Translations under genes and position numbers: made by a program
Part shown: piece after piece, positions 1,467 through 39,016 of the stretch
Layout: each line of letters begins with the position of its first letter
Numbering within the stretch: position 1 is the stretch's first letter
Notes under the pieces: model-generated
Told to the model about the DNA's origin: nothing
The model's database searches: none
The model's input: the letters and a program-made list of their open reading frames with translations, nothing else
Source: a virus
DNA length: 40,683 bases
Direction: 5' to 3' (one strand)
Virus record (IMG/VR): IMGVR_UViG_3300033145_000577
Coordinates: 1-40,683 of that record

Positions 1467-1496
1467 ATATATTTAATATAAATTATAAATTAGAAA

Positions 1497-1687
1497 GGGG
1501 TGGGCTCGGTCGTGTAGCCTATGGTCGAAAATAGGCTAACTTACATATATAACGGGTATATAACTTAGCGTATATACCACCCGAGTTATAAAAACATTAG
1601 TACCCCGTCGCTACGTAAAATACTCATTACTTCTTGTCGTCCACGCTATATAGCGTTTTTGTAATTCGTCAATACGGTAGTAACGAG
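1497..1687 (-). ncRNA. Structured intergenic RNA candidate with multibranch fold
   Basis: This 233-base gap (1467-1699) holds no convincing gene but many nested inverted repeats. A 9-bp stem pairs 1679-1687 with 1623-1631; one pair is G.U in the minus-strand RNA and would be A-C in plus-strand RNA. It encloses the 14-base palindrome ACGCTATATAGCGT (1643-1656). Further on, arms 1602-1606 with 1497-1501 and 1581-1585 with 1505-1509 enclose two hairpins: GGTATATA/TATATACC (1555-1562, 1571-1578) and TAGCCTA/TAGGCTA (1515-1521, 1532-1538). This resembles a multi-branched RNA or an origin-like region. Its role is unknown. It could be a leader of the downstream gene. Confidence 0.5.
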
Positions 1688-1699
1688 GTGCTAATATTT

Positions 1700-1915
1700 T
1701 TATATTTTAAGGTACTCTATATTATTCATATCTAAAATATGGTCGGCTTGTTTCTCTAGCGGGTCTTTTAAATCTGCGTCTTTAATTCCTTTTGCAAAAT
1801 TACAACCGGTATGCCGGTACATATCGCATGCTAAGAAATCACTAAATTTACCTGTCTTAATTATTATTTTTCCTACTTTGCAAAATGGGCATGATCCGCC
1901 TACCTTAAACTTCAT
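1700..1915 (-). CDS. Topoisomerase-type zinc-ribbon protein
   Basis: This 71-residue protein is mostly one zinc ribbon. C9-x2-C12 and C30-x7-C38 sit in CPFCKVGKIIIKTGKFSDFL and FLACDMYRHTGCNFAKG. That spacing and the F-L-A-C ... C-N-F pattern match the C-terminal zinc fingers of bacterial topoisomerase I (zf-C4_Topoisom), here as a stand-alone unit. It probably binds single-stranded DNA or an RNA/protein partner; this is inferred from the family. It lies 53 bases downstream of the KH-domain gene, in the same transcript. Confidence 0.7.
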   Translation of the reverse strand: MKFKVGGSCPFCKVGKIIIKTGKFSDFLACDMYRHTGCNFAKGIKDADLKDPLEKQADHILDMNNIEYLKI

Positions 1916-8461: not shown

Positions 8462-8538
8462 CTAAAAACCCATTCATTAATTTGCCTTACCCGCTAAGAT
8501 TTGGCTATTTAATAAATGGGTTTTTAGTCTTAGCGGGT
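8462..8538 (-). promoter_or_regulatory. Interlocked inverted repeats in HNH leader
   Basis: Two perfect inverted repeats are interleaved. A 13-bp pair joins 8515-8527 with 8462-8474 (CTAAAAACCCATT and its complement) and an 11-bp pair joins 8528-8538 with 8489-8499 (ACCCGCTAAGA and its complement). In the transcript the order is B', A', B, A, with B' directly next to A', so the stems are pseudoknotted or mutually exclusive. The A arm includes the codons after the optional start at 8477. It could switch transcription or translation of the HNH gene, or be a homing/recombination site. Confidence 0.5.
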
Positions 8539-9019: not shown

Positions 9020-11149
9020 TTATCCGTTAAACCCTTGTAAACGCACAAGCCCCTCATCACTTGAAAATAGCATATCACCTCTGCCGAGTAGTTTTTCTGC
9101 TCCCGCCTCGTCTAGTAATACTCGGCTATCGGTTTCTTTAGCCGTTCTAAATGCTACCTTAGTGCTAAAATTTGCTTTTATCGAGCCAGTTATAATATCT
9201 ACACTAGGGCGTTGCGTCGCTATAATTAAATGTATCCCGCATGCTCTAGCTTTTTGTGCAAGTATTAATACATGCCTACTAATTTCTTTGCTAAAATCTA
9301 TCTTTTCAATTTTTGTTTTATATTCTCCCTTTCGCTCCCCGCTCTTATATTTTTCCTTTGTCTTTACTTCCTCCTCCTGTACTTGCCCGCCTAAAACTAA
9401 GTCGCCGAACTCGTCTATAACTATAACTTTATATCTCATTTCTCCGTCGTACTCTTCTATGTTCCTAGCCCCCGCCTCTGAAAGTTTAGTATAGCGGTTA
9501 TTCATTTCTTCCACTAAGCCGTCTAGTGCTAAATAAATGTCTTCCGTTTCTGTGTAGTATTGTTTTGCTATGCCTCTAAACTGGGCTAGCTCTACTAATT
9601 TCGGGTCAAATAAATGTAAATCTACATCTTTATTTTCTGATAACTGGCTAATTAAAGAATTTAAAAATACTGATTTACCGCTACCGGTCGCTCCGGCTAT
9701 TAGCATGTGCGGGGCTTTTCTTATGTCAAAACGGTGCTCCTCTCCTAGTAGGTTTATCCCCATAGCTAAATTAAAACCGTCGGTTACTGGTTTACGTTCT
9801 ACAAAAATCCTTTTTTCTTTTGGTACTTCAAAACCTATTAAAGTGGTGTTAGGTATCGGTGCTAAAACTCTTACGCCGGTAACTCCTACTACTTGCTCTA
9901 TGTCCGCCGTGTAGCCTTTTAGCTTACTCATTTTTAAGGCTATGGTCGGGTCGTATTGGTATAGGTCTACGGTATGCCCTGAAATCTTACTAACGAAATC
10001 AATAATCATTCCGTGTTCCATTAATTTAGCTTTTATTTTGTCTTGTATTTGCATATCTTTATAATTAATACGTTTAGCCGTCGTAAAATTTCGCTCGGCT
10101 GTTTTTAATAATTTACGCATGTTGCCCGCATGCTGAATTTTCTTTTTAAGTAGGTCGGTAATATTATCTACTTTTAACTTTTTCATTTGCTTAGCTCTCT
10201 CCTCGGGCTCATCTAGTCTATGTATGTAGGCTAGTATAGCTATCTCGTTGTCGTAAAAATCATTAATATTTGGTATAAAAACCGACTCTCCGTTTATAGC
10301 TCTGATAACGTCGCCATAAAATCTAAAATAAAAGTCAAAAAATTCCTCGTTCTCTTCAAATACTATTTCGTACTCTTTTAATTGGGGCTGTCCTAAATTC
10401 TTCCCGCTATTTTTTGTACTTTTTACCTCTTCGTAGATCATACTATATGGTGGCTCGCCATACTCTGCGTAGGCTAAAAAATAATATTGTACCGCTTGTA
10501 TGATTTTAGCCCCGTCTATTTTATCGGGGTTACTAAATGATTTACACGTTTTATAATCTACTACCGAAATCCTACCCTTTCCTTTCCCCTTTTTATTTCT
10601 AATTATTTTATCGATAAAGCCTCGTAGCGGTATAGGCAAAACTAGCCTTTGCCCGTTGTGCTCTATATCTATAGCGGTGTGTATTTCTTTTTCGGTTTCT
10701 ATTATTTCCTCCTTGCTATGGTCTTTCGCTTGTAGGTAACTACTAAAAGAAAAGCTATAAATTTCTTGCATTTTCTGTTTATTTGGCACGGCTTTGCTAA
10801 AGTCTATAAATTTGTCGTCGTACCCTACTAAATATTTCATTCCCTCCTCTAGTCCTATCTTAACGGGGTCTTTTTTCTTTTCCTTTATAGCGTTGTAATA
10901 AAACTGCATAGCTCTATGAAATGTTTTACCGTTTACTAACGGCGTCCCGTTAGCACTCTCTATGTTGTCGTGGTTTATATATCGTATTTTAAACATCATG
11001 GGGTTAGTAGAAAATCTACATAGACTACTAGCTGAAAAATAATCTAACGGGAAATCATTTACATTTTTAAGCTTTACTATTCTGCTCGTTATTCTCGGTA
11101 GGCTTTTCATTTTTTGTTTCCTCGTTTTTTTCTTTATTATTTTCCTCAT
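9020..11149 (-). CDS. RecB-type nuclease fused to FtsK-type DNA translocase
   Basis: This is a single 709-residue chain. The N-terminal part (about 30-280) is a RecB/Cas4-type PD-(D/E)XK nuclease: YFSASSL, H78 in GKTFHRAMQ, D180 in LRGFID, D198 and K200 in VVDYKT, and Q219 in QAVQYY. The C-terminal part (about 380-709) is an FtsK/SpoIIIE motor: APIPNTTLIGFEVPK (alpha/beta strand), Walker A GATGSGKS 486-493, Walker B VIVIDEFGD 575-583, ATQRPS 644-649 and GRGDMLF. The chain stops where the motor ends, so no DNA-sequence-reading gamma domain follows. It probably resects double-stranded ends while translocating, feeding single strands to RecT. The start overlaps RecT by 83 bases (ATG 11149) or 44 bases (ATG 11110). 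Confidence 0.9.
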   Translation of the reverse strand: MRKIIKKKTRKQKMKSLPRITSRIVKLKNVNDFPLDYFSASSLCRFSTNPMMFKIRYINHDNIESANGTPLVNGKTFHRAMQFYYNAIKEKKKDPVKIGLEEGMKYLVGYDDKFIDFSKAVPNKQKMQEIYSFSFSSYLQAKDHSKEEIIETEKEIHTAIDIEHNGQRLVLPIPLRGFIDKIIRNKKGKGKGRISVVDYKTCKSFSNPDKIDGAKIIQAVQYYFLAYAEYGEPPYSMIYEEVKSTKNSGKNLGQPQLKEYEIVFEENEEFFDFYFRFYGDVIRAINGESVFIPNINDFYDNEIAILAYIHRLDEPEERAKQMKKLKVDNITDLLKKKIQHAGNMRKLLKTAERNFTTAKRINYKDMQIQDKIKAKLMEHGMIIDFVSKISGHTVDLYQYDPTIALKMSKLKGYTADIEQVVGVTGVRVLAPIPNTTLIGFEVPKEKRIFVERKPVTDGFNLAMGINLLGEEHRFDIRKAPHMLIAGATGSGKSVFLNSLISQLSENKDVDLHLFDPKLVELAQFRGIAKQYYTETEDIYLALDGLVEEMNNRYTKLSEAGARNIEEYDGEMRYKVIVIDEFGDLVLGGQVQEEEVKTKEKYKSGERKGEYKTKIEKIDFSKEISRHVLILAQKARACGIHLIIATQRPSVDIITGSIKANFSTKVAFRTAKETDSRVLLDEAGAEKLLGRGDMLFSSDEGLVRLQGFNG

Positions 11150-32855: not shown

Positions 32856-34958
32856 TTATTTTAAATCTGGACGCATTAGCCAAACATGCCGGCAATTCCC
32901 TACCCATATGCACTTACCGTTTCTTCTTGTATAAAGTGTGTTATTTTTTTCCAGTTCTACACAATAAACAAAATCATTATATTCTTTTTTTTCTATTTTC
33001 ATGTTTGATAATGAAATATGTTTATGATTATTTTGTCTTATAACCCACTGATTGTTATTTATTGTATATGTTCCGTTTTTGAATTTAACATTTTTCCCTT
33101 TGCTTTTCATTAAATAATACGAGGGTCTTTTTCCTACTTTTAATATCAATTCCCCTATATCGTCAGCCATTTTTTTTGAAGATGTAATATAAGTTATTTC
33201 ATCTTTTAAATTACCACCCTTGTACTGTTTTGATTTCCTTTTTGATCCGTCCCCTAAATTAAAAGTATATAAAAACTCTTCTATTATCCCCCTGCTTGAG
33301 TTTTTTATTTTATTTGGTATAAATTTGTTTGCTGATTTTCCGAATTGCTTTAAATATTCTCCTAATTTTTTATCTCTAAATCTTATACTCTCGTCATTTA
33401 AATATAATTTATTTTTAGTAAAAGCCTTTATAGCTTTTAGCATATAACTATATTTCTTTGGATTTTTTGTTTTTGATTGAGATATGCTTATCAAATAACT
33501 AGTATCTACTTTGCTGGACGAACCTTCTGACAACCATATCCCCATAAATCTTGCAAATTCAACCGAACATTCATCTTTATTTTCCCATTTTGAGCTCGCA
33601 TAAAATCTACCACTTTTTTTATCTAATAATTTATCGGCATGTATCATTTTAAATTCATACTTTCCTAACTTCCTGTTACTGTCACTCTGATAAAACATAT
33701 TATGATTGCCTGTGACTGCTATGTTTGCTATTTTATTTTTAAAATAAATTAATTCTTTTTCTTTGTGTTTAAAGGTTTTTATTATTTTTGTTTTTTCTAA
33801 ATTAAAAGTTTTCTGATTAAGTGATATTACTTCATCATCTATTTTAACATCTTTAATCAACTTCCACCCTTCTGCTGTTAGCATTTCTGTGTCTTTATCA
33901 AAACAATTCGGGTGTATAGGGATTGATATAGGCGACGTCGGGTAGTTCTTACTATCCCCGCTTATACTGTATAGTTTTCCCTCGTACGGCGTGCATATCG
34001 GGCATGCTCCGGCGTGTATACTTACTTGTACTATGTCTACGCCGAACTGTCCGGCTCTATTTATTAATGCCTCGTTACTGGCTTTTATTACGTGCGTCCT
34101 TGCTAGCATTTCGCTATAGCGTCTTAAACTCCAACTACGCCCGCCTCTGTCTACTAATACGTTAAATCCTTTATCGCCTAATAATTCTACTATTTCTTTT
34201 TTTACTTTTTGTATACTCTTACCTGTAATTTCCTTAGCTATAATCTTCCCTCGTATCTGTCGCCGTAAAGCCTCGTTTAGTTTCTGCTCCGCTCCTCGCA
34301 TTAATCCATTCATGCTATTTGCAAAATCTAGGTAGCTCTCGCCTAGTAGTGCCTCTACCGTTCCTGAGTGTATACTTAAATCTCTAACTATCTTAATCTC
34401 TGCCGGTGTAAATTTTATTTTATATTTTTCAAATTCTCTCCCTACCATTCCTTTCATTATCTTGGGCTCTGAAGTAAATATTTTCCAGCGTGTTTGTAAA
34501 TGGTTTCTAATATCTCCCATTACTACTTTATTGTATTTTACCGCTCTACCCATTTTAGTATATAGGTCGCCGTAACTATAAATATTTTTAGCGTCTACTC
34601 TTTTTAATAGTCCCGCCATTTTCGGGTTAGTATAACTTACCTGTAATATCGTATCCTTTAAAATAGCTTTAGCTAATTTACTATTTAGCCTTATGCTACT
34701 AAATTGGTAATCTGCAAAACTTAAACCGCTCGCATAACTTTTTGGTATTGCCTTGGCTAGCCATTTTTTAATCTCGGGGTCTGCGGACTGTATTATTTTC
34801 CGTATGTTCCTTAATGCCTTAGCTTTCCCCGTTTGGGTTAGGCGTGTATTTATAGCTCTTAAAACTTCGTTCCTAGCCTCTAGGTCTAGGCGTTCCATAA
34901 CATTTAAAAGCTGTGTTATATTTGCGTCTTTATAAATTATGTCGCCTAGCTTTTTCAT
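32856..34958 (-). CDS. Mu F-like minor head protein interrupted by an intein
   Basis: The open frame encodes 700 residues. The N-extein (1-351) is a Mu gpF/SPP1 gp7-like head morphogenesis protein: long helices, then LARTHVIKASNEALINRAGQ, IHAGACPICTPYEGKLYSIS, and IPIHPN. The intein follows (352-688), and the C-extein is the 12 residues CRHVWLMRPDLK. Joined, the extein reads HPNCRH, the conserved Cys/His motif of the family, giving a 363-residue protein. The protein sits at the portal vertex and helps DNA entry or head assembly. Splicing must occur for the conserved motif to be complete. Confidence 0.88.
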   Translation of the reverse strand: MKKLGDIIYKDANITQLLNVMERLDLEARNEVLRAINTRLTQTGKAKALRNIRKIIQSADPEIKKWLAKAIPKSYASGLSFADYQFSSIRLNSKLAKAILKDTILQVSYTNPKMAGLLKRVDAKNIYSYGDLYTKMGRAVKYNKVVMGDIRNHLQTRWKIFTSEPKIMKGMVGREFEKYKIKFTPAEIKIVRDLSIHSGTVEALLGESYLDFANSMNGLMRGAEQKLNEALRRQIRGKIIAKEITGKSIQKVKKEIVELLGDKGFNVLVDRGGRSWSLRRYSEMLARTHVIKASNEALINRAGQFGVDIVQVSIHAGACPICTPYEGKLYSISGDSKNYPTSPISIPIHPNCFDKDTEMLTAEGWKLIKDVKIDDEVISLNQKTFNLEKTKIIKTFKHKEKELIYFKNKIANIAVTGNHNMFYQSDSNRKLGKYEFKMIHADKLLDKKSGRFYASSKWENKDECSVEFARFMGIWLSEGSSSKVDTSYLISISQSKTKNPKKYSYMLKAIKAFTKNKLYLNDESIRFRDKKLGEYLKQFGKSANKFIPNKIKNSSRGIIEEFLYTFNLGDGSKRKSKQYKGGNLKDEITYITSSKKMADDIGELILKVGKRPSYYLMKSKGKNVKFKNGTYTINNNQWVIRQNNHKHISLSNMKIEKKEYNDFVYCVELEKNNTLYTRRNGKCIWVGNCRHVWLMRPDLK
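32895..33905 (-). mobile_element. Intein with LAGLIDADG homing endonuclease, 337 residues
   Basis: Intein residue 1 is Cys (codon 33905-33903) in CFDKDTEMLTAEGWKLIKDV (block A). Block B is IAVTGNHNMFY with T65 and H68. LAGLIDADG helices are FMGIWLSEGSS (about 120-130) and FLYTFNLGDGS (about 211-221). The C-terminal blocks are YCVELEKNNTLYTRRNGKC and WVGN, with Asn 337 before extein Cys (32894-32892). The penultimate residue is Gly rather than the usual His, a known minority type. Codon use is more AT/T-ending than the exteins, showing recent arrival. It is placed in the most conserved motif of the host protein, which is typical of inteins. Confidence 0.9.
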
Positions 34959-35129: not shown

Positions 35130-35327
35130 TTAAAATATTGATTTAGCTAGGCGTGCTACAACTATTATAGAAAATAGTGTTATTAGAAAAATACCTAACC
35201 CCGCAAAATAAACTTTTATAAATAATCTATAGTTTAATTTTGCTAAGTGGTCTTCTAATAGTTTCGCACTACTCTCTACTTTTTCCGGTAGTCCCCTACT
35301 TAATTTATTGCCTCTTGGAAAATTCAT
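35130..35327 (-). CDS. Small single-pass membrane protein, 65 residues
   Basis: MNFPRGNKLSRGLPEKVESS starts a soluble helical part followed by a C-terminal membrane helix (about 40-58, VYFAGLGIFLITLFSIIVVA) and a short basic end (RLAKSIF). This tail-anchored layout could place the soluble helix in the cytoplasm. No family was recognised. It follows a strongly structured RNA gap at 35427-35339. Confidence 0.6.
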   Translation of the reverse strand: MNFPRGNKLSRGLPEKVESSAKLLEDHLAKLNYRLFIKVYFAGLGIFLITLFSIIVVARLAKSIF

Positions 35328-35338
35328 ATATTTTTTAT

Positions 35339-35427
35339 TATTGCCGTCCCCCTATTACGTGTAATAAGGGGTAATCATATGCAAATCTCTTTCGGGCAAT
35401 CAATAACCTAAAAGAGGGACGGCAATA
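35339..35427 (-). ncRNA. Three-way-junction RNA candidate after the portal gene
   Basis: A 12-bp stem pairs TATTGCCGTCCC (35339-35350, plus strand) with GGGACGGCAATA (35416-35427). Inside, CCCCTTATTAC/GTAATAGGGG (35371-35361 with 35358-35349) gives about 10 bp with tetraloop CACG and one U.G wobble on the minus strand, sharing a few G residues with the outer stem. A third stem CTCTTT/AAAGAG closes a loop with 18 bases. This fills the 107-base gap between portal and a small membrane protein. It may be an RNase III-type processing site or a regulatory RNA. Confidence 0.55.
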
Positions 35428-35434
35428 TTATTAT

Positions 35435-36817
35435 TTAAAATTCGGGTTTATTGTTTATATCTAATACTCCACTCTCTATATTTTCTTTTTTAATTAGTTC
35501 CATTTCTGCGTCTACGTCTTCGTCGCTAAAATTGTCTAATCTCTTCATAGCTGATCGTCGGCTACTTAATCCTCCGCTTACTTTTTCATTTTCTTTATTT
35601 ACTTCCTCTATTTCGTCTATTGGTAGAACTTCGCTATATTTAATTTCTATCTTTCCATCTAGGTCTTTACTATTCATTAATTTATAGCCTATCCTAATCA
35701 TTTTTCTGACGCCCTTAGTAATCTTGCTACGCTTTCGTGTGGTTTTTCTTATCGCTCCGAATAATTGAATACGTAAAGCCTCTACCCGTTCAGGCATTGC
35801 TGATTTTAATAATTCAAACATTGGTATTGATGTAATCCAACTAATGAATTGTAAATTTTTTTCTACGTGTTTCTCGGTATCTTCTATAAGCGGGTTAGTA
35901 TTTAAAATATATTTAGCGTCGCCTTGCTCCTTATCGGTCATTATATAATCAAACGCTTTTAATTTACCGTCGTCGGTTTTTAATTCGTCTATAACCGGTA
36001 ATTGTATTTTAGCGTCTAGGTTTTTTAGTAATTGAGTGCTTATATGCGTTCGTCTTTCATTTACTTCTTGTAGCTGTGGCATAATAGGGGCATAGTCGCT
36101 AGCTCCAAATCCCCAACTATTTTTACGTCCGTTATCTATTTGGGCTATAGGTAGCTCGCCTAGTCCCTCCATAGTTTCCTTGGGTTCTGCCGTTATTTCC
36201 GCATAATCTAGGGCTAGCTCGCTCTCCGCTCTTCCGTCGCCGTCTATTTGCCATAACTGCCTAGTAATTTTTACGTCTTTGCCCTCTAGCTCATAATATT
36301 GCGTATATAAAATTTTCTTACGGTCTTTTAATATGCTATTATCGTCCTTTGGGTCAAATAAGAATGTTGCAAAAATAACGCTACCGTCGTTCTGTGGAAA
36401 ATATTGGTCTTTAGGTACTTTTTGTATTCTATAAACGCTATCCTCGTCTTGGTAACCTAGTAAAACCTCAAAACCATATTCGCTTTGATTATATGCGTAG
36501 TCGTGTATTTCTTCCGCTATTTCGTTATCTTCTACTATTCTATCTACTGCTTTCCCCTCTGCCTCGCTACCGCCTATTAAATTTATTGACATTCTTTCGC
36601 TATCGCCTTGGGCAAAATCTGCGTAAAATTCGCTTACCCTAAAAGGTATAGCGTGGGATAAATAAACTATATCCGTAGTCTTAGAATATTGCTTTTTAAT
36701 TATCTCGTGTAATAGTAGCACTCCCTCTTGGTCGTTATCGTGTAATTTTTCGTATTTCCTTAGTGTTGCTATCCTCTTTAGTTCTACGTTACTAGGGAAG
36801 TTTTTTTTTATTTTCAT
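35435..36817 (-). CDS. Portal protein
   Basis: This 460-residue protein fits portal size and pattern: QEGVLLLHEIIKKQYSKTTD, RVSEFYADFAQGDSE, YNQSEYGFEVLLGYQDED, VPKDQYFPQNDGSVIFATFL, IDNGRKNSWGFGASDYAPIM PQLQEVN and the long C-terminal helix VEALRIQLFGAIRKTTRKRS, KITKGVRKMIRIGY. It forms a dodecameric ring at the head vertex and docks terminase. Order TerS, TerL, portal, minor head protein, scaffold, capsid is classical (SPP1/HK97 style). Confidence 0.85.
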   Translation of the reverse strand: MKIKKNFPSNVELKRIATLRKYEKLHDNDQEGVLLLHEIIKKQYSKTTDIVYLSHAIPFRVSEFYADFAQGDSERMSINLIGGSEAEGKAVDRIVEDNEIAEEIHDYAYNQSEYGFEVLLGYQDEDSVYRIQKVPKDQYFPQNDGSVIFATFLFDPKDDNSILKDRKKILYTQYYELEGKDVKITRQLWQIDGDGRAESELALDYAEITAEPKETMEGLGELPIAQIDNGRKNSWGFGASDYAPIMPQLQEVNERRTHISTQLLKNLDAKIQLPVIDELKTDDGKLKAFDYIMTDKEQGDAKYILNTNPLIEDTEKHVEKNLQFISWITSIPMFELLKSAMPERVEALRIQLFGAIRKTTRKRSKITKGVRKMIRIGYKLMNSKDLDGKIEIKYSEVLPIDEIEEVNKENEKVSGGLSSRRSAMKRLDNFSDEDVDAEMELIKKENIESGVLDINNKPEF

Positions 36818-36841: not shown

Positions 36842-37201
36842 TTATTTTTGTTTTTTGTTTTTCGGTTTCATTTTATATTTTTTCCCGGCTCGGTCTTGGC
36901 TCGCTATCGCTACGTCTATATTATCCTTTAGCGTATTAGCTTTACTAATTTCTTCTTGCTTTACCTTGTCTTTTTTATATTTTTTTTCGTCCTTTTTTAT
37001 TTCCCCGCTAAACTTACTTAGCTTTGTAGCTCTGCATACTGGGCATATTAATTTGCCGTCTTTACGTTTAAAAGTTCCGTCGGTTTCGTTTTCTTTAAAA
37101 ATAATCCTAGGGCAATATCCGCACTTAGCTTTTATAGTTTTTTTAAGTGGTGTAATAATTTTACTAGGTTTTATAATTCTTGCCTCGCTGATCTTTACCA
37201 T
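36842..37201 (-). CDS. Zinc-ribbon protein next to terminase
   Basis: This is a 119-residue basic protein. Cys pairs CGYC (27-30) and CPVC (53-56) form a clear zinc ribbon, preceded by a basic lead (IIKPSKIITPLKKTIKAK) and followed by a Lys-rich helical tail (FSGEIKKDEKKYKKDKVKQE). Zinc-finger DNA- or protein-binding is likely. Its place between TerL and portal suggests a packaging or head accessory, but small zinc proteins occur all over this genome. The structured RNA at 37417-37308 lies upstream. Confidence 0.65.
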   Translation of the reverse strand: MVKISEARIIKPSKIITPLKKTIKAKCGYCPRIIFKENETDGTFKRKDGKLICPVCRATKLSKFSGEIKKDEKKYKKDKVKQEEISKANTLKDNIDVAIASQDRAGKKYKMKPKNKKQK

Positions 37202-37307
37202 AAAATTTCATTTAAATTATTAAAATCGCCCCGTTATTTTCCTAAATAAAAGACGCATACTAATTTTAATTATATTATAAATCGTTTTAAACATATTTCT
37301 GTCATTG

Positions 37308-37417
37308 CCATTACTACGAACGTCTTAATTGGTCTAGCCTATTCCCCAACCCTTGGCTAGTAGAGTATACGGGGCACGTGTTGTTCCCTTTTAAGCTGTA
37401 GTCGTCCGCAGTAATGG
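37308..37417 (-). ncRNA. Small structured RNA candidate between TerL and zinc-ribbon gene
   Basis: CCATTACTGCGGACG (37417-37403, minus strand) pairs with CGTTCGTAGTAATGG (37322-37308) over 15 bp. Two pairs are G.U on the minus strand; on the plus strand they would be A-C mismatches, so minus-strand RNA is indicated. Inside, CTAGCC (37360-37355) pairs with GGCTAG (37339-37334), and loop GGGG (37347-37344) could pair with CCCC at 37374-37371 to form a pseudoknot. A promoter-like pair lies just upstream. Role unknown; regulatory or packaging RNA is possible. Confidence 0.6.
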
Positions 37418-37436
37418 ACTTTTATTTTGTAATTAT

Positions 37437-37465
37437 ATTATACCTTAATTCTAATTTTTTGGAAA
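37437..37465 (-). promoter_or_regulatory. Promoter candidate for structured RNA
   Basis: TTTCCA (37465-37460) and TATAAT (37442-37437) are 17 bases apart on the minus strand, right at the end of TerL. The predicted start site is about 13-14 bases before the 15-bp RNA stem at 37417. This supports separate transcription of the structured RNA and the downstream portal block. Confidence 0.5.
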
Positions 37466-37468
37466 GTA

Positions 37469-39016
37469 TTATATTGCGTCGCCTTTACCCGCTCCTGCTG
37501 TCGCTTTTTTCTTCCCAAATAATCCTAATAATAAATATACTAGGGCGTCTACTAGGTCGTCGTGCTCTTCAACTCCAAACCCTACTAACTGCTCTATTAA
37601 ATCCTCGCACCCTGTCTTAGGAAATCGTACTAGCCCTTGCTTAATATACATAGCTACGGTTTCTAGCCTTGCCCGCTTGTCTGCTATTGGTCGCATTTCT
37701 TTAACAGGTAATCCCTTTTTACGCATTTCTTTAATGCATGCTAATTGATAGGCTACGCTCTCTACGTATAGTCTAGCTCCCGCAGGTAGTGCCTTGTGTA
37801 CGGTGTGGGCGTTGTCTATCGTCCGCTCTAGGTCTAGTCGTCTATTAACTGGGTTAGGTTTTATGTAAACTACCTTAACGCCGTTTACTTTTTCGCCCTC
37901 TAAACTTATAGCCTCGTACTCCCTCGCTACTATTCCCGCCACCATAGCCGTAAAGTCTGCGGTCTGTTTTTCACTAATCGCTAAATCAATACCCGTGCCG
38001 GCGTCTACCGGTTTAATTCCTAAGCTACCTTTTAACGTTAGCCGTTCGTTATCATAATATGAAATATCGCCCTCGGTAATTACTTGCTCCTCTTCGGCTA
38101 AAATCTTTAGTAAATATTCCCTTTGCCAGACTATATTATTCGCTACTTTAGCCTTTTGTTTTTCTATAGCCTCGGCATTAGGATATTTACCCGTCCACGT
38201 ACATTTTCCGTCCTTGTCCGTTAAACTAAACTCGAACATTTTAAAATTATTACGCTTTTTTATTCTGCTCATTAGAGCGTCTTTGTGTAATAAGTTACCT
38301 ATAACTATCAATTTACATTTTGCCTCTTCCTGTGCCGGTACTACTTCGGTATTTAGCCACCTCTCGGTCTTATTACGGTTTTCTTTTTTTCTAGTCCATT
38401 CCAAATCTTCGGGGTCGTCAATAATAATTAGCTCCGGTCGGTACTGTCTAAATCTAAGTCCCCTAATTTTCTGTCCCCTACTTCTACCAATTAAAAAAAC
38501 GTCCTTACCTATCATTAGCTCGGTTTCCGTCCACTTGTTTTTATTCGCTATGTACGCCTCGGGAAAATCTGACTGGATCAGTTCGTTCTCTTCTAGCTCC
38601 GCTTTAATATTCGCTATGTTTAATTTTACTTGAGGGCTCGTGTCATTTATTAATACTAAGAAATTAAATTTTTTAAATATCGCTACCCATAGAGGATAAG
38701 CTAAACTACAAAACGTACTTTTCGCACTACCTCTAAATCCTATCACTCCTACCGCCTCGGCGGTTTCGTCTTCTAGTATGTCTACTAATTGCTTATGGAA
38801 ATCTGCAGGCTCTAAATTAAAATAGTGGCTTAGGTATATTAGACAGAAAAATATAAAACTTTTCTCCGCTAAAAAAATACGCTCTTCCGGCACGTCTATA
38901 TCTACCTCTACCTCTTTGTAAATATATAACCGTAGCGTCTGCTCGTACTCCATGCTTACCTTAACGCCTAACTCTTCCACGTCGGGGCGTAATTGTTCTA
39001 GTGTTTTAAGTTTCAT
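37469..39016 (-). CDS. Terminase large subunit
   Basis: This 515-residue protein has an ATPase with Walker A GFRGSAKST (93-101), Walker B LIIIDDPED (196-204) and coupling motif area VIGNLLHKDAL. The nuclease half has Asp motifs GTGIDLAISEKQTADFTAMV, LYVESVAYQ and a C-terminal HDDLVDALVYLLLGLFG. It cuts concatemers and pumps DNA into proheads through the portal. The start overlaps the TerS end by 11 bases. A canonical order of Walker A/B and nuclease acid residues suggests full activity. Confidence 0.93.
   Translation of the reverse strand: MKLKTLEQLRPDVEELGVKVSMEYEQTLRLYIYKEVEVDIDVPEERIFLAEKSFIFFCLIYLSHYFNLEPADFHKQLVDILEDETAEAVGVIGFRGSAKSTFCSLAYPLWVAIFKKFNFLVLINDTSPQVKLNIANIKAELEENELIQSDFPEAYIANKNKWTETELMIGKDVFLIGRSRGQKIRGLRFRQYRPELIIIDDPEDLEWTRKKENRNKTERWLNTEVVPAQEEAKCKLIVIGNLLHKDALMSRIKKRNNFKMFEFSLTDKDGKCTWTGKYPNAEAIEKQKAKVANNIVWQREYLLKILAEEEQVITEGDISYYDNERLTLKGSLGIKPVDAGTGIDLAISEKQTADFTAMVAGIVAREYEAISLEGEKVNGVKVVYIKPNPVNRRLDLERTIDNAHTVHKALPAGARLYVESVAYQLACIKEMRKKGLPVKEMRPIADKRARLETVAMYIKQGLVRFPKTGCEDLIEQLVGFGVEEHDDLVDALVYLLLGLFGKKKATAGAGKGDAI

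Follow-up and report, generated by a model that had tools for sequence, protein, structure and literature searches.

A pseudoknotted RNA element in the probable 5′ leader of a phage head-gene operon

Bacterial and phage operons can begin with structured 5′ leaders, pseudoknotted riboswitches included, that hold a folded, insulated domain between the promoter and the first start codon; their compact pseudoknotted cores keep the loop letters while the stems vary freely. The element described here, designated E1, shares these traits, but it matches no Rfam family and was found in two phages only. The packaging RNA (pRNA) of phi29, with a length of ~110–120 nt, is about as long as E1; both are phage-encoded, have paired ends and come from a packaging-gene neighbourhood, and E1 differs in that its pseudoknot lies inside a single molecule. 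MITE-like palindromic DNA elements resemble E1 in their terminal inverted repeats and in their presence or absence among relatives.

The window, i.e., the whole stretch of viral DNA that was analysed, comprises 40,683 bases with 34% GC, and almost all of its genes are on the minus strand. E1 lies in a gap of 267 bases (37202–37468) with TerL on one side and a zinc-ribbon-like gene on the other (Table 1). The coding potential of this gap had been described as poor in a sequence-only reading, which is partly right; the gap does hold a 24-codon ORF (37294–37220), relatives of which (24–36 aa) are present in the related phages L003, L004, and L042. A Shine-Dalgarno-like motif was found in just 5 of the 58 genes of the window phage.

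Table 1 Features of the E1 locus and of the related gap element E2. Positions refer to the window unless a phage handle is given.
Feature	Position	Strand	Basis or remark
TerL	37469..39016	-	Upstream neighbour of E1; phrog_38, E 3e-70
Promoter TTTCCA-17-TATAAT at TerL 3′ end	37437..37465	-	Position recurs in L003, L004, L042, more loosely in distant relatives
E1, whole structured element, 110 nt	37308..37417	-	Stem far above shuffles; z −3.5; homologue L042:3387-3524
P1 closing stem, 5′ arm CCAUUACUGCGGACG	37403..37417	-	Different sequence in L042, also pairing
P2, 5′ side CUUAA-AA-GG	37387..37395	-	Fold; partner 37324-37332; GGCGG/CCGCC takes its place in L042
Pseudoknot, 5′ side CCCC	37371..37374	-	L042: CGCG, two double compensatory changes
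P3 hairpin CUAGCC...GGCUAG, 15-nt loop	37334..37360	-	Stretch of highest conservation in E1
Pseudoknot, 3′ side GGGG, within P3 loop	37344..37347	-	L042: CGCG
P2, 3′ side CC-AA-UUAAG	37324..37332	-	Fold; GGCGG/CCGCC in L042
P1 closing stem, 3′ arm CGUUCGUAGUAAUGG	37308..37322	-	Pairs with 37417-37403
Small ORF, 24 codons, MFKTIYNIIKISMRLLFRKITGRF	37220..37294	-	First gene after the leader
Zinc-ribbon-like protein (CxxC...CxxC)	36842..37201	-	Second operon gene; motif; relatives 47–59% identical
Portal gene	35435..36817	-	Next after the zinc-ribbon-like gene
E2	35339..35427; L003:4047-4133; L042:5396-5490	-	Behind the portal gene; folding z −4.3 to −5.7; strand given for the window

The anatomy proposed in the sequence-only reading is present. 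The 15-bp stem P1 (37417–37403 with 37322–37308) encloses 110 nt, and two of its pairs are G–U, pairing only in minus-strand RNA. Within 160 nt, stems as strong as P1 are expected 0.017 times per genome, as estimated from 60 dinucleotide-shuffled genomes, and the window contains three (37417/37308, 35427/35339, and 8527/8462). Folding against shuffled controls, a check proposed with that reading, gave z −3.5 for the 110 nt of E1 read as minus-strand RNA and −1.5 for the plus strand; the larger span quoted there reached just −2.1. P3 is missing from the minimum free energy fold of the window E1, which was computed without the pseudoknot.

By TerL identity over the alignment, the nearest relatives are L004 (79%), L003 (77%), and L042 (about 70–71%); L021 is nearly the same virus as L004, and L002 and L040 are the window's own or an identical sequence. 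L042 was not picked up by the first TerL scan and was reached via its portal protein. It carries an E1 homologue at the same place, flanked as in the window by the promoter and the small ORF. The outer stems P1 and P2 have entirely different sequences in the two phages, and the pairing is re-formed: P1 is AAAAG..ACGGG/CCCGU..CUUUU in L042, and P2 is GGCGG/CCGCC. GGGAAC follows P2 in both, and L042 has two extra hairpins, one between P1 and P2 and another following GGGAA. The core then runs in the same order in both phages, with the pseudoknot 5′ side (CCCC or CGCG), a 10–11-nt joint ending in CUA, P3 (CUAGCC/GGCUAG or CUAGCU/GGCUAG), and ACC; the 15-nt P3 loop has the consensus AAGG-NNN-(GGGG or CGCG)-AAYA. 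This common anatomy was read manually. Apart from the pseudoknot, the core TCTACTAGCYAAGG....GAAYAGGCTAGACC hardly differs between the two phages and is better conserved than coding DNA, the TerL DNA being 72% identical; its local alignment score is 33 against a shuffle mean of 14.6 and maximum of 26.

The change from CCCC:GGGG in the window to CGCG:CGCG in L042 amounts to two double compensatory changes. Across P3 and the pseudoknot, 20 of 20 cells pair (100%) with two pairs changed on both sides, and only 5–45% pair when the partners are slid by 1–3 columns. A shuffle control of the covariation gave 116/500; with two sequences it has no power, so the covariation argument rests on where the changes fall and on the controls with slid partners. 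The covariation thus comes, on present sequences, from few pairs in two distinct members. All three known G–U pairs (two in the window P1 and one in the L042 P3) can pair only in minus-strand RNA, and the L042 homologue folds modestly better than its shuffles (z −1.7). E1 is, on this comparative evidence, a genuine folded and pseudoknotted RNA element of the minus strand, its structure being conserved in the two sequences via compensatory changes as in structured 5′ leader RNAs. The hairpin CUAGCC/GGCUAG and the then tentative CCCC/GGGG pseudoknot are both backed by the second phage, and compensatory changes, the lack of which in homologous gaps had been named as grounds for abandoning the idea, are what L042 displays.

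Upstream of E1, the predicted promoter pair pointed out in the sequence-only reading consists of TTTCCA (37465–37460), a 17-nt spacer, and TATAAT (37442–37437); 19 nt separate it from P1, and it scores 10/12. Single matches of this kind are weak in AT-rich DNA, where 1–31% of random windows score equally, and promoter-like matches of this class occur in the AT-rich window at chance level (33 found, 31.7 expected). What is persuasive is the recurrence of the predicted promoter at the same place in relatives. L003 and L004 have the promoter and the small ORF without E1, and the distance from the −10 box to the ATG after TerL is 6–11 nt in most relatives and 19 nt in L003, compared with 142 nt in the window and 173 nt in L042. 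Among individual loci, a −10-like box ends 6–8 nt ahead of the following start codon at L004:6551, L005:2231, L006:6296, L008:6477, L009:5638, and L028:6526. Transcription starts ~6–7 nt past a −10 box, and the short distances therefore suggest nearly leaderless mRNAs in most of the TerL relatives, as judged from their sequences.

These comparisons alter the proposal that E1 is a small RNA with its own promoter. The promoter appears to serve the downstream operon, since it is kept directly before the next gene in relatives without E1. No minus-strand terminator-like site was found in the window after E1 (near 37308), and the conserved small ORF begins 13 nt on; in L042 the distance from the end of the P1 3′ arm to the first AUG is 6 nt. 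E1 thus has neither a promoter nor an intrinsic terminator of its own, the marks of a stand-alone small RNA. With the transcription start placed by the predicted promoter, E1 lies between the promoter and the first start codon of the operon. We read it as a leader because the promoter is shared with the operon, a terminator is lacking, and a conserved 24–36-codon ORF stands just behind; also counting for a leader is the transcribed-strand structure that is widespread in the gaps of the window phage.

We therefore consider E1 to be, with reasonable probability, a pseudoknotted RNA domain belonging to the 5′ leader of the mRNA for the head-gene operon, most likely acting in cis. This mRNA would begin at the promoter at the TerL end and extend into the genes for the small peptide, the zinc-ribbon protein, and the portal. 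The domain would be insulated by P1, with a compact core built of P2, hairpin P3, and the pseudoknot in the P3 loop. Folded E1 would then lie immediately before an initiation site that is open and has no Shine-Dalgarno sequence; the initiation region at the first AUG is unpaired in the folds. From there it may set the translation and/or stability of the operon mRNA in cis, possibly via a bound protein or ligand. The control of late genes suggested in the sequence-only reading is possible in this cis form. E1 is evidently dispensable, because L003 and L004 lack it.

The alternative that survives best, though we regard it as unlikely, is a trans-acting small RNA freed from the leader by processing, e.g., at the long P1, or by premature termination. 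A long insulating P1, a compact pseudoknotted core, and a start close to the promoter would suit such an RNA, as would the U-rich stretch GUUUAACUUUU behind the core in L042; no minus-strand terminator was nevertheless found behind E1 in the window, the promoter is common to the downstream operon, and a start codon follows the element within 6–13 nt. Less probable still is a special cis form of the leader, namely, a ligand- or protein-responsive switch at the operon head, riboswitch-like or acting by RNA polymerase-modifying antitermination. Its location at the transcript start, its pseudoknot, and a core sequence far better conserved than the outer stems would fit a switch, but no Rfam riboswitch matched the window or L042 up to E 10, and the downstream genes (small peptide, zinc ribbon, and portal) are non-metabolic. 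We give a similarly low probability to the idea that E1 stands for a novel class of leader RNA in phages, one that draws in the ribosome or detects a signal so that the head genes are translated. Such a class would belong to phages with few Shine-Dalgarno sites, whose relatives begin the same operon with hardly any leader (−10 box 6 nt before the ATG).

A MITE-like mobile palindromic DNA element inserted between promoter and gene is very unlikely. It would account for the terminal inverted repeats and for the absence of E1 from the same site in L003 and L004, but the inverted-repeat pattern, searched with near-exact arms, has no further copies in the window, in IMG/VR, or in 84,980 species genomes, and there is no target duplication, the flanks AAAAGT and CAATGA having nothing in common. 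The ends of E1 differ between the window and L042 while the interior is conserved, and the pseudoknot covaries. A functionless chance inverted repeat, for which the count of only two distinct members speaks, is more improbable again, given that stem and core score above shuffles and that a positional homologue with compensatory changes exists. Least credible of all is a packaging RNA acting with the terminase in the manner of phi29 pRNA, the link raised in the sequence-only reading: its sole point is the position beside TerL, the window phage has a classical TerS/TerL motor (TerL with a Terminase_6C nuclease domain, TerS adjacent), E1 has no Rfam match, and a packaging role is disfavoured because L003 and L004, with TerL 77–79% identical, lack the element.

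Returning to E1 as a leader element, searches for further members extended over several collections. DNA similarity of the gap or the element gave nothing above chance in 50,697 phage records and plasmids. Rfam, at the gathering score and up to E 10, gave no credible match for the window or L042, known riboswitch classes and pRNA included, and a tRNA/tmRNA search found none. The inverted-repeat pattern retrieved only the window's own near-identical record from IMG/VR and the species genomes, and two core patterns retrieved only the window and L042 from IMG/VR; 31 other loose-pattern matches were rejected, as the P3 pairing was missing and their number equalled the chance estimate. A covariance scan of relatives, also proposed with the sequence-only reading, was run with a core model, R1, over 52 loci; it recovered the window and L042 and no further credible member. 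A 24-bit R1 hit in L023 was rejected as chance, being antisense inside the minor-head gene with P3 broken. R1 found none in 380 genomes (one Patescibacteria-centred phylum draw) and four chosen genomes, and R1 and BLAST did not find E1 elsewhere in the L003 and L004 records, which are fragments. A scan of all relatives for long stems was uninformative in GC-rich contigs, a broader TerL profile yielded no additional close relatives, and a search for the topic in the literature collection used had no match. E1 is thus genuine and probably new as a structured RNA element, with two members known.

E1 is one of a set of strongly structured gaps in the window genome, a hint that phages of this group in general carry structured RNA between their genes. 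The mean folding z of 15 intergenic gaps of 60–160 nt is −3.1 on the transcribed strand, against −0.25 for 120 coding windows, none of which falls below −3. Some of them amount to simple terminators or lone hairpins, and others are complex (35427–35339, 8538–8462, and 1704–1494). The first of these, E2, is like E1 stem-closed, covarying, intergenic, and in the same operon; the sequence of its 12–16-bp closing stem varies among three phages with the pairing kept, and it is absent in L004. E2 differs from E1 in the two side-by-side hairpins inside its P1 in the window fold, and no sequence relation was recognised.

TerL relatives at 44–51% identity occur in bins labelled Kaiserbacteria, Nomurabacteria, Taylorbacteria, Peribacteria, and other Patescibacteria, suggesting, from bin labels, Patescibacteria hosts at the level of the wider TerL group. 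E1 defines a candidate RNA family that has no Rfam entry, from phages distantly related to Patescibacteria-binned prophages or phages, whose RNA biology is nearly untouched, and related phages that carry or lack the element share one promoter.

Several other features of these genomes were observed. In L042, a small HNH-type ORF lies behind E2. The 65-aa gene behind E2 in the window (35130–35327, minus strand) is 72% identical to that of L042 and 52–57% identical to those of L003 and L004, and the portal gene shows the reverse (60% to L042, 69–70% to L003 and L004); this opposite pattern suggests recombination. Two interleaved inverted repeats (11–12 bp and 19 bp; z about −5) at 8462–8538 on the minus strand, immediately before an HNH-type ORF (ATG ~8450), could form a pseudoknot or else a switch with two states. 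The gap at 1494–1704 (minus strand) contains two complex folds, 1587–1704 (z −6.0) and then a multi-hairpin region. L004:2537-2645 holds an inverted repeat of 22 bp, and one of its arms reads as the DNA methylase motif DPACGGGN. The minor head protein of the window (32856–34958, minus strand) is split by an intein-like insert with a LAGLIDADG domain (Pfam PF14890 under its cutoff, PF14528 over), and its relatives are alignable only up to residue ~352. One ORF at 9020–11149 (minus strand) fuses a PD-(D/E)XK nuclease domain with an FtsK/SpoIIIE-like ATPase domain.
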